Assembly (NCBI RefSeq): GCF_039531105.1
Contig: NZ_BAAAPK010000001.1
Coordinates: forward strand, 1,426,001 to 1,490,000
Direction of reading: 5' to 3'
Length of the DNA stretch: 64,000 nt
Origin: Microbacterium lacus
GTDB lineage: Bacteria; Actinomycetota; Actinomycetes; Actinomycetales; Microbacteriaceae
Made by a program: the position numbers and the translations under genes. Every line of letters begins with the position of its first letter. Within the stretch, counting starts at the first letter, position 1. Of this stretch, positions 52,416 through 59,574 are shown one piece after another. A model generated the notes under the pieces. It searched no databases and was not told where the DNA came from. It was given only the letters and a program-made list of their open reading frames with translations.

Positions 52416-53162
52416 ATGAACGATTTCGCGTCAACGCCTGAGTTGATCCTGCTGCCCGCTGTCGACGTCGCCGACGGCAAGGCCGTCCGCCTCACGCAGG
52501 GGGAGGCCGGCACGGAGACGAACTACGGCGACCCGGTGGATGCCGCCCTCGAATGGGCGAAGCAGGGCGCCGAGTGGATCCACCTCGTCGACCTCGACGC
52601 GGCGTTCGGACGCGGCAGCAACACCGCGGTGATCCGCAAGGTCATCAAGCAGGTGCGCGGCGTGCAGGTCGAGGTCTCCGGCGGGATCCGCGACGATCGC
52701 AGCCTGGAGGCCGCCTTGGAGAGCGGCGCATCGCGCATCAACCTCGGCACCGCGGCGCTGGAGAACCCCGAGTGGGCGGCGGATGTCATCGGCCGGTACG
52801 GCGATCTGATCGCGGTGGGCCTGGATGTCCGCGGCACGACGCTCGCCGCGCGCGGCTGGACCCAGGAGGGCGGCGACCTGTGGACCGTGCTGGACCGGCT
52901 CGAGGCCGCCGGGTGCAGCCGCTACGTCGTGACCGACGTGACGAAGGACGGCACTCTGCAGGGGCCCAACATCGAGCTGCTCCGTGAGCTCACCGCACGC
53001 ACGCCGAAGCCCGTGATCGCCTCCGGCGGTGTGTCGAGCCTGGACGACATCGCGGCGCTCCGCGACCTCGTTCCCCTCGGCGTCGAGGGCGCGATCGTGG
53101 GCAAGGCCCTGTATGCGGGCGCGTTCACGCTCGCCGAGGCGCTGGATGTCGCAGGGCACTGA
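52416..53162 (+). CDS. priA: Phosphoribosyl isomerase (HisA/PriA)
   Basis: 248 aa (beta-alpha)8 isomerase. Catalytic Asp in [10 protein letters not shown] and second Asp in [15 protein letters not shown] near residue 26 and V-S-G-G-I-R are phosphate loops. In actinobacteria this protein often serves both histidine (HisA) and tryptophan (TrpF) synthesis, and the [14 protein letters not shown] segment fits PriA. Dual activity is inferred. GAGGAG precedes the ATG. Confidence 0.93.
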
Positions 53163-53940
53163 CGGGCATCATCCCCACGCGGGTGATTCGGCCGGGGTCC
53201 CGTGGGAGGGGCGCAGCTTCGAGCCCAATCCTCACTCCGGCGACGACGGTTCGGCCGATCCCGCACTTCTGGCGGCGCTGACCGCGTTCCGGGCGGAGGT
53301 CGCGGCCGGGATTCTGGGCGATGCCGTCGCCGTCGTGGACGCGTATCGGTCGGCTCGGCTCCTGATCCCGCTCCTCGCCGAGAAGGGCGATCACGGCGTC
53401 GGACCGCACGGTCTTGCGGTCGACAAGACTCAGGAGCTCTCGATCGTCACGGTCGCCGCTCCCGACGGACGTCGGGTCCTCCCCGTCTTCACCTCCGTCG
53501 CTGCGATGTCCCGCTGGGATGCCGCCGCCCGCCCGGTGCCTGCCGACGGTCCGCGCACCGCCCTCGCGGCATCCGCGGACGAAACGGATCTGATCGTGAT
53601 CGACCCCGGGTCCGACACGGAGTTCGTGCTGCGCCGGCCGGCGGTCTGGGCGGTCGCGCAGGGGCTGCCGTGGGAGCCGAGCTACACCTCACCCGAGGTC
53701 TTCGCCGGGCTGCAGGCCAGCATCGGCGGCGAGCTCGCCGTGCTCGACCTCTCCGTCGAGGCCGGTGACCCTTCGGGGCGCCTGCGCGGGCCGGAGCTCA
53801 TCGTCCGGCTGGAGCTGATCCACGGTTTGGAGCAGGCGGAGCTGGATGCCGTCCTCGGCCGGCTCGCGAAGCGGTGGGCGGCCGATGACCGCGTGGCGGT
53901 GCTGGTCGATTCGCTGACGGTGAAGCTCATCCGCTCCTGA
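53146..53940 (+). CDS. SseB-family protein
   Basis: 264 aa. Two SseB-like domains are seen: L-L-I-P-L-L-A-E-K with V-L-P-V-F-T-S in the first (about 60-180), and a shorter C-terminal one. SseB proteins are small chaperone-like factors of unclear role in actinobacteria, often encoded beside histidine genes and infC. ATG at 53146 overlaps the end of priA by 17 bases; other starts would cut into the first domain. The C-terminus meets the repeat array region. Confidence 0.82.
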
Positions 53941-53984
53941 TCCTTCCCTCGCCCTCGCCCTCGCCCCCGTCCGTCTCCCGCCGC

Positions 53985-54244
53985 CGACATGGTCCCATTT
54001 CTGCCGAGATGGTCCCTTTTCCCTCGAGATGGTCCCCACCATCTCGGGGGTAAACCCACCATCTCGATGGGGAACGCACCATCTCGGGGGTAAACCCACC
54101 ATCTCGGCGGGAAACGCACCATCTCGGGGGTAAACCCACCATCTCGGGGGTAAACCCACCATCTCGAGGGGAGAACCACCATCTCGAGGGGAGAACCACC
54201 ATCTCGGGGGGAGAACCACCATTCGGGGGAGGACCACCATCTCG
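53985..54244. repeat. 20-bp-period tandem array of ACCATCTCG with an orientation switch
   Basis: The 392-base gap between SseB and the decarboxylase is filled mainly by this array. The 9-mer CGA(G/C)ATGGT occurs at 53985, 54005 and 54025, then its complement ACCATCTCG at 54038, 54058, 54078, 54098, 54118, 54138, 54158, 54178 and 54198, each 20 bp apart, plus a shortened copy at 54218 and a last one at 54236. Orientation flips at 54025-54046, which is a perfect palindrome (CGAGATGGT-CCCC-ACCATCTCG). Spacer bases vary (GGGGTAAACCC, GGGGAGAACC and others). No gene support; binding-site array, repetitive element or RNA scaffold are all possible. Confidence 0.9.
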
Positions 54245-54332
54245 GGGACACGGTTCGGAGAGCGGGTATCTGAGAGGCGGCTTGTCGCTCCTCCTCCCCA
54301 GGAGGAGGATCAGGCTCACGAGGAGGTCAGCG

Positions 54333-55745
54333 ATGACACAGACATCCTTCGACGACACTCGATCCGCCCCCGCGGCGGCAGAGGCCCTCGATCGGGCGCA
54401 CGCGGCTGCCGTGGACTGGTTGACGCGGATGCCGGAGCGCGGCATCCCGGCGACGACCGGCGTCGCCGAGACGCAGTCCCGTCTCGGGCTGGAGCTGCCG
54501 ACCGATCCCGAGCCGCCCGGCGACGTGATCGACGCCCTCATCCGGGCGGTCGAGCCCGGGCTCATGGCGTCGCAGTCGCCGAGATTCTTCGGCTGGGTGA
54601 TGGGCGGCACCCTGCCGGCGTCGCTCGCGGCGGACTGGCTCGTCTCGGCGTGGGATCAGAACGCGGGGATGCGCGAGGTCACGACGGGCGTCGTCGCCGC
54701 AGAGGACCTCGCCGGTCGCTGGCTGTGCGAGCTGCTCGGCCTCGACCCGGCGTGCGACGTCGGCTTCACGACGGGGGCCACGATGGCGAACCTCACCGGT
54801 CTCGCGGCCGCCCGCACGCGCGTGCTCCGCGACGCGGGGTGGGATGCCGATGAGCGCGGGCTCGCCGGGGGTCCGCCGATCAGGTTCCTCGCGGGTGCGG
54901 AGAGGCACGGCTCGGTCGACCTCGCCGCGCGGCTTCTCGGCCTCGGCGCCGCGGAGCTCATCGACGCCGACGATCAGGGTCGCATCCGGCCCGATCTGCT
55001 GGCAGAGGCGCTGGCGGGCAGGTCGGGCCCCACGATCCTCGCGCTGCAGGCGGGAAACGTCCACTCCGGCGCGTTCGATCCGTTCGCGGAGTGCGTGGCT
55101 GTCGCGCACGACGCCGGTGCCTGGGTGCACGTCGACGGCGCATTCGGACTCTGGGCGGGCGCGAGTCCACGATCGCGTCACCTGATGCGCGGCGCGGAGG
55201 ATGCCGATTCGTGGGCGACCGACGCCCACAAGACGCTGAACGTCCCGTACGACTGCGGCGTCGCGATCGTCCGCGACCGGGTGAGTCTGCGCCAGGCGAT
55301 GGGCACCCACGCGAGCTACCTGACCGCAACCACGACCGCCGATGCGGATCCGCACGAGCGTGTGCCGGAGATGTCCCGCCGGGCGCGGGGCGTCCCGGTG
55401 TGGGCGGCGCTGCGATCGCTCGGCACGTCGGGGGTCGCGGCCCTGATGGACCGGCTGACGCGGTCCGCTCAGCTCCTCGCCGACGGGGTCACCGCTGTTC
55501 CGGGGCTGCAGGTGCTCAACGACGTCGTCTTCACCCAGGTCTGCGTCGCCGCGAGCACGGACGAGGCGACCAGAGCGCTCGGCGAGCTGCTCCGCGCCGA
55601 CGGGGTCGCGTTCGCATCCTCCTCGGAATGGCACGGCCGCGCCGTGCTGCGGTTCTCCGTCAGCAACGCCGGCACGGACGACGAAGCGGTCGCCGAGTCC
55701 CTCGCGGCGCTGCGCCGCGCCGCAGAGCGGATCGGAGAGCAGTGA
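54333..55745 (+). CDS. PLP-dependent amino acid decarboxylase (group II)
   Basis: 470 aa. Fold type I group II decarboxylase; the PLP Lys is in T-D-A-H-K-T-L-N-V-P, the PLP Asp in H-V-D-G-A-F-G-L-W-A and T-T-G-A-T-M-A-N-L. The group includes aromatic L-amino acid, glutamate and diaminobutyrate decarboxylases; substrate is not predicted. AGGAGG precedes the ATG. It and the repeat array interrupt the usual SseB-DUF1844-infC order, so local insertion is possible. Confidence 0.86.
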   Translation: MTQTSFDDTRSAPAAAEALDRAHAAAVDWLTRMPERGIPATTGVAETQSRLGLELPTDPEPPGDVIDALIRAVEPGLMASQSPRFFGWVMGGTLPASLAADWLVSAWDQNAGMREVTTGVVAAEDLAGRWLCELLGLDPACDVGFTTGATMANLTGLAAARTRVLRDAGWDADERGLAGGPPIRFLAGAERHGSVDLAARLLGLGAAELIDADDQGRIRPDLLAEALAGRSGPTILALQAGNVHSGAFDPFAECVAVAHDAGAWVHVDGAFGLWAGASPRSRHLMRGAEDADSWATDAHKTLNVPYDCGVAIVRDRVSLRQAMGTHASYLTATTTADADPHERVPEMSRRARGVPVWAALRSLGTSGVAALMDRLTRSAQLLADGVTAVPGLQVLNDVVFTQVCVAASTDEATRALGELLRADGVAFASSSEWHGRAVLRFSVSNAGTDDEAVAESLAALRRAAERIGEQ

Positions 55746-59517: not shown

Positions 59518-59530
59518 CGCCCCGACCAGC

Positions 59531-59574
59531 ACCCGCACGACCCGCACCCGCACGACCCGCACCCGCACGACCCG
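59531..59574 (+). repeat. Three tandem copies of a 15-bp unit between gluA and gluB
   Basis: ACCCGCACGACCCGC repeated at 59531, 59546 and 59561 (last copy one base short). Located in the 107-base gap before the binding-protein gene. It might arise by slippage; a regulatory role is unknown. Confidence 0.8.

Follow-up and report, generated by a model that had tools for sequence, protein, structure and literature searches.

The 64,000-nucleotide stretch of Microbacterium lacus DNA analysed here (the window; contig NZ_BAAAPK010000001.1, positions 1,426,001 to 1,490,000) contains, at 53985–54244, an array of short repeats phased at 20 bp and disposed in two opposed arms, one of at least 38 such arrays in the genome. 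The arrays are dispersed, share a common plan and lie mostly 3' of genes; their unit number varies between genomes of the species, and their nine-nucleotide word is conserved within a genome and differs between species. The reading that we prefer, at about even probability, is that of a dispersed, REP-like non-coding family, the units of which would be sites of a putative, coevolving DNA-binding factor and the arms of which would change by whole units. A literature search, beyond the reach of which most subscription papers and preprints lay, found no published description of such arrays.

The left arm of the array in the window (53985–54033, plus strand) contains three words in 20-bp steps, CGACATGGT at 53985, which has one mismatch, and CGAGATGGT at 54005 and 54025, with a CCC-type triplet 3' of the word. 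The arms meet head to head at 54025–54046, where CGAGATGGT, CCCC and ACCATCTCG follow each other with a word-to-word step of 13 bp. The right arm (54038–54206, minus strand) consists of nine perfect ACCATCTCG words in exact 20-bp steps, with triplets mostly of the GG type, and its outer end (54218–54244, minus strand) is made up of a word with a 1-bp deletion at 54218 and a final perfect word at 54236–54244. The three plus and eleven minus copies that a sequence-only reading of this DNA had reported, nine of them perfect and exactly 20 bp apart, are all present between 53985 and 54244, while the 22-bp perfect palindrome that it described at 54025–54046 is in fact a 9-bp inverted repeat flanking a non-palindromic CCCC. 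Its proposal that all sites face one side of the DNA holds only approximately, because at the B-DNA pitch of 10.5 bp per turn 20 bp correspond to about 1.9 turns, near to two. Tandem Repeats Finder scores the two arms at 77 and 265. In Rfam, no family scored above its cut-off over 53000–55000 (the best, mir-642, reached 28 bits against a cut-off of 90), and the array matched nothing in either a plasmid or a phage collection.

Throughout the M. lacus genome (G000), 95 pairs of the 9-mer are spaced by 18–22 bp (47 forward and 48 reverse), against none for a reversed control, and the single 9-mer has 252 exact matches in 3.54 Mb, against 33 for the control. Thirty stretches around the paired matches, together with the window, yielded 39 clusters; exclusion of the one that lacks an exact word (L031, 7012) leaves the 38 arrays. 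The excluded cluster is still inside the 279-unit and arm-class statistics given below, and at least one further array, near 937.9 kb, lies outside the 38. In 37 of the 38, plus units face minus units head to head; the other (L034, 6178) is single-armed. The steps between units of the same orientation (n = 278) are 20 bp in 271 cases, 19 bp in four, 38 bp in two and 22 bp in one, and, of the 37 two-armed arrays, 31 have a head-to-head step of 13 bp, four one of 12 bp and two one of 32–33 bp, the last two having a degenerate central unit. A lineage-specific repetitive element, one of the possibilities raised earlier, is what this whole-genome search found, with the same word and plan at 38 loci. 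The arrays are unevenly distributed, many of the listed places being at about 0.67–1.13 Mb of the 3.28-Mb contig C1.

The arrays are extragenic and predominantly 3' of genes. In a raw tally of 94 array intervals from 11 genomes, for which a crude caller supplied the genes and the interval limits were set by hand, the neighbouring genes are co-directional in 54 cases, convergent in 29 and divergent in 11. Where the interval has a facing stop codon (83 cases), this codon is within 60 bp in 65, at a median distance of 29, as placed by the same crude caller.

Each unit is composed of the word, CGAG[A/G]TGGT, and a spacer that opens with a variable triplet and is pyrimidine-rich thereafter. Information content over the 279 complete units is 1.00–1.97 bits at the nine word positions and 0.21–1.39 at the eleven spacer positions, with the first four word positions being C in 278, G in 272, A in 272 and G in 257. 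Within an arm the units are alike, the triplet (positions 10–12) matching at 0.79, as tandem duplication predicts. When arms are classed by their triplet as GG-type or other, the two classes are combined in 29 of the 37 two-armed arrays, versus 18.7 when shuffled (p = 0.0013).

A second genome of the species (G277) was compared at loci chosen as array-bearing and mapped onto the G000 array sites, with long flanks that are on average 98.5% identical. In the 20 array pairs, unit number is hypervariable, 24 of 40 arms having changed, an equal count with strict and with tolerant spacing. In the 16 arms of equal length, from which alone the rates were taken (51 unit pairs), the word mismatches at a rate of 0.026, or 0.017 when position 5 is left out, against 0.066 for the spacer and 0.015 for the flanks, so that the spacer differs at four times the flank rate and the 9-mer at near the flank rate. 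The earlier claim of stronger conservation in the 9-mer than in the spacer is borne out among the 279 units and again between the two genomes (0.026 versus 0.066), where a 9-mer no better conserved than its spacer, the mark of neutral duplication, was not found.

Outside the species, the strict form is rare and the plan is not confined to M. lacus. A three-unit CGAGNNGGT form is present in five of 366 Microbacterium genomes and, in a family sample of 85 genera, in one of 398 genomes, namely G000, the reversed control matching seven of 398 at one to five places each. A word-blind pattern, in which CGAG repeated at 20 bp faces CTCG repeated at 20 bp head to head, matched 81 of 247 genomes, mostly once or twice each. 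Many single matches among those listed resemble coding sequence. At least five matches were obtained in eleven genomes: G000 (33), G119 (19), G013 (14), G094 (12), G091 (11), G222 (10, a pattern count only), G121 (7), G067 (6), G003 (5), G138 (5) and G232 (5). The reversed control gave none in these eleven apart from one in G119, and at most two in any genome. The word-blind counts overstate the number of arrays, because overlapping matches are counted and units of the G094 type, which end in CTCG, make one-way runs match.

The same plan, with CGAG followed by another remainder, was found in ten further Microbacterium genomes, the constancy of CGAG and of the 20-bp step among species being partly imposed, since both are fixed in the search patterns. 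The words are CGAGAAGGT in the sister species G003, CGAGATGGCC and CGAGGTGGCC in G013, CGAGGTTGTC in G091, CGAGGTCGTAC in G094, CGAGGTCGCC in G138, CGAGTGAGTATTCG in G119, G025 and G067, CGAGAYGGT in G121 and CGAGTTG in G232. By script, a head-to-head pair of 20-bp runs was detected at 41 of 57 loci from ten other genomes, most of these loci having been preselected by the head-to-head pattern: 5/5 in G138, 5/5 in G091, 4/5 in G013, 11/12 in G119, 7/10 in G121, 1/7 in G094, 1/1 in G025, 1/2 in G232 and 5/9 in G003, with contig ends and N runs in several, and a doubtful 1/1 in G112, with differing words. The period is 20 or 21 bp depending on the family, about two turns. Alongside its 20-bp family, G121 has a second one, CGAGGGTGC, with a 21-bp period (L410–L414) and, in several arrays, a 26-bp centre, CGAGGGTGCTTTCGAAAGCACCCTCG. 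The 21-bp pattern has 64 matches in G121 versus 1–31 in the other 246 genomes (reversed control 0–11); this background is taken as coding and not as a clean period control, because 21 is a multiple of three. At L412 (contig C1 of G121, about 369.5 kb), 21-bp CGAGGGTGC units form an in-frame run within the gene of a CopA-type copper ATPase. They contribute about 50 added residues with a seven-residue repeat between two conserved parts of the protein, residues 483–540 standing opposite seven residues of the solved homologue 3j09.

A scan of named genomes gave 94 stretches; of 80 loci listed, 44 were read, the remainder being Microbacterium MAG loci. Among those read were two from M. schleiferi and four from Actinomycetota MAG contigs, one of them Acidimicrobiaceae (L138, L142, L173 and L179), in which CGAGTGGGT and CGAGT[G/A]GGT words recur every 20 bp, close to an opposed copy. 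The shared plan of these four hints that the class may be older than the genus. The other loci, as far as their sequence was read, resemble simple tandem duplications or repeats within coding sequence. Carriage by viruses was considered and rejected: in the eight viral-contig stretches with the pattern, different words are simply repeated in tandem with identical spacers, and the roughly 60 bp inspected of each contain no opposed arm.

Six of the nine G003 loci share with a G000 array both the adjoining gene and the side of it on which they lie; L031/L298 and L049/L296 were excluded as shared sites, their arrays being on different sides of the gene. At the six shared sites, 40 of 46 G000 words have AT or GT at positions 5–6, where 30 of 32 G003 words have AA. 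Among the array intervals of G013, G091, G094, G119 and G138, four of 36 have a gene 3' end in common with a G000 array (the window array with G119, L048 with G013, and L043 and L040 with G138), a small excess over the 0.7 to 1.3 roughly estimated by chance and therefore suggestive, not strong; in G121 this applies to one of 12 intervals (L043). At the site 3' of the SseB gene, which is that of the array in the window, a run of at least three CGAG at 20 bp was present in G000, G119 and G067 among the 68 of 70 species loci read, and a shorter CGAG run was seen by eye in G031. In the arrays of G119, G067 and G031 the word is CGAGTGAGTATTCG and supplies the SseB stop codon. The sister species G003 has no array at this site, nor at the lpd–accA site, and arrays have therefore been gained or lost. 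The array in the window may be independent in origin from that of the G119 group.

Among known systems, the REP and REPIN repeats are closest. According to Di Nocera et al. 2013 (PMC3733652), REPs tagged GTAG or CGTC are dispersed and species-specific, with several families per genome; their sites, often opposed pairs, are mostly 3' of genes between co-directional or convergent ORFs, some are intragenic and in frame, and REP termini can supply a stop codon. The same source states that CGTC REPs have no known dedicated transposase and that REP dimers prefer unlike partners, for which its authors suggest protection from clearance. The arrays resemble REPs so described (PMC3733652) in their dispersal as species-specific families, place, number, opposed organisation, preference for unlike partners, in-frame copies and the stop-supplying word. 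Like REPs, they are extragenic and mostly 3' of genes; unlike them, they have CGAG in place of a GTAG or CGTC tag, no unit palindrome of 20–40 bp, no RAYT in 13 genomes, no stem-loop of the unit's own, and arms in which direct repeats follow each other at a period of 20 or 21 bp. Iteron-type and transposase-end arrays consist of direct repeats of about two turns that are bound by one protein, and the arrays differ from them by their dozens of loci and two opposed arms and in that no replication or transposition gene was seen alongside. In VNTR or minisatellite loci the unit number varies between genomes of one species, as it does here, but the arrays have one word and plan at many unrelated loci, and their word and spacer change at different rates.

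The array in the window would, under our preferred reading, be one copy of a dispersed non-coding family of REP-like character, seeded mostly just 3' of stop codons. Its 20-bp units, each a site of CGAG and a remainder particular to the species, would be read by a putative sequence-specific DNA-binding factor, which would most likely also spread or maintain the arrays, being perhaps a transposase-derived or nucleoid-type protein. Arms would lengthen and shorten via tandem duplication and deletion of whole units, while the word would be held by recognition, and a genome-wide shift of the word would follow a shift in the specificity of the factor. We infer the factor because recombination or gene conversion should homogenise word and spacer alike, yet only the word is kept, and because the words of many loci differ in a concerted way. 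Such a factor may coevolve with its words, could influence transcription or chromosome structure, and might benefit the host. The multi-site binding platform proposed from the letters alone is still the best reading of the array; its binder did not emerge from the searches for RAYTs and flanking genes. RAYT (Y1_Tnp, PF01797) was found in none of 13 genomes, five of them with arrays, by a search that was positive in five of 14 control genomes. The flanking genes common to arrays are only large paralogous families and true orthologues, and these searches gave no binding protein, adjoining gene or transposase for the arrays. Against the preferred reading, conservation of the word within a genome could stem from recent common descent, and the strict CGAGNNGGT form is rare, with its five of 366 Microbacterium and one of 398 family genomes.

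Three features, namely the unit length of about two turns, the head-to-head plan and the species-specific word, speak for recognition by a putative protein. We tentatively suggest a new species-specific chromosomal recognition system of Microbacterium, and perhaps of other actinobacteria, in which a fast-evolving trans-acting protein would read the head-to-head arrays 3' of genes, phased at about two turns, and the words would shift in concert with the protein, as dialects over an invariant CGAG. The word difference between G000 and G003 at their six shared sites would then be a natural experiment in the genome-wide rewriting of a recognition word. Should recognition be the wrong explanation, the arrays would remain an undescribed, hypervariable REP-like class of actinobacteria, with a possible use in strain typing.

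It is possible, though less likely than not, that the arrays are a selfish or neutral repeat with no present-day reader: an ancestral element would have spread, its arms would expand by slippage, and recent descent with ectopic homogenisation would keep the word common. The sporadic presence among species, the hypervariable unit number and the lack of an array in G003 at the SseB and lpd–accA sites all agree with this, and the in-frame run inside the CopA-type ATPase of G121 is what an insertion would give. The unequal conservation of word and spacer, which are parts of the same units, and the concerted difference of the word at the six shared sites speak against it.

An RNA element seems unlikely; in this reading the inverted arms, once transcribed, would fold into a long hairpin serving either to terminate transcription or to shield the upstream mRNA at its 3' end. 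The place of the arrays just 3' of stop codons would suit it, as would the fold of the whole array (z = −3.15), a value that an inverted repeat would tend to yield anyway. However, single units fold no better than shuffled ones (mean MFE of −2.94 for both), units that would face each other in register across the two arms show no greater likeness than those out of register (p = 0.76), and triplet 10–12 matches across arms at 0.24, versus 0.465 for random units of other arrays. The two unlike arm classes also show nearly equal numbers for the two orientations (15 and 14). No intrinsic terminator (GC-rich hairpin plus T run) is present at the head-to-head centre of the array in the window, the one terminator-like site, weak and with 0.1 expected, being at 53995–54012 in the left arm. 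As register makes no difference and the triplet avoids complementarity, pairing between the arms is not what is kept, and selection for the structured RNA that had been suggested for the array is not supported. The avoidance of perfect arm pairing recalls the preference of REP dimers for unlike partners described in PMC3733652.

It is very improbable that the words serve self-recognition or DNA uptake, as species dialects with an invariant core like those of the Neisseriaceae. Uptake words are usually dense, genome-wide single words. Neisseriaceae DUS dialects share a CTG core and often stand as inverted pairs at terminators (PMC3630211), and the arrays are like them in their short word, invariant core (here CGAG), species-specific remainder and opposed pairs 3' of genes. 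Unlike DUS, the arrays have far fewer words, clustered in phased arrays: the 252 exact words lie largely within a few dozen arrays in 3.54 Mb without a dense genome-wide spread, most uptake-sized fragments would contain none, and identity with DUS therefore does not fit. That the array in the window is a local tandem duplication of no wider meaning, as its exact period and the likeness of units within one arm might suggest, is ruled out for practical purposes by the recurrence of word and plan at 38 G000 loci.

In the window, the SseB N-terminal domain gene (PF07179; plus strand, 53200–53940 being part of it, with the frame open from 53029) lies upstream of the array and its stop ends 44 bp 5' of it. 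Downstream follow a pyridoxal-dependent decarboxylase gene (PF00282; 54333–55745, plus strand, with an ATG at 54333 and the frame open from a TTG at 54282) and, convergently, a DUF1844 gene (PF08899; 55758–56177, minus strand), which in several relatives without the decarboxylase adjoins the SseB gene. The decarboxylase is an accessory gene adjoining the SseB gene: a homologue, 56–64% identical, is present in the SseB locus of 16 other species among the 70 loci. None of these 16 species has a run of at least three CGAG at 20 bp 3' of the SseB gene, and no link between array and decarboxylase is visible.

Long hairpins of other sequence were seen 3' of the SseB gene at least in G013 (L389), G054 (L398), G024 (L377) and G113 (L386), several of them with a common AATCGGGG...GGGGCCCCGCTC-like core, in a reading that left minus-strand matches unreversed. 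At the lpd–accA junction, where 17 loci were inspected, three of them in unreversed minus-strand orientation, opposed repeats of other words were seen by eye, uncounted, in G109 (19-bp steps), G176 and G224. Elsewhere in the window, at 59523–59574, there is a 15-bp tandem repeat, CGACCCGCACCCGCA, of 3.5 copies with 97% matches, unrelated to the array.
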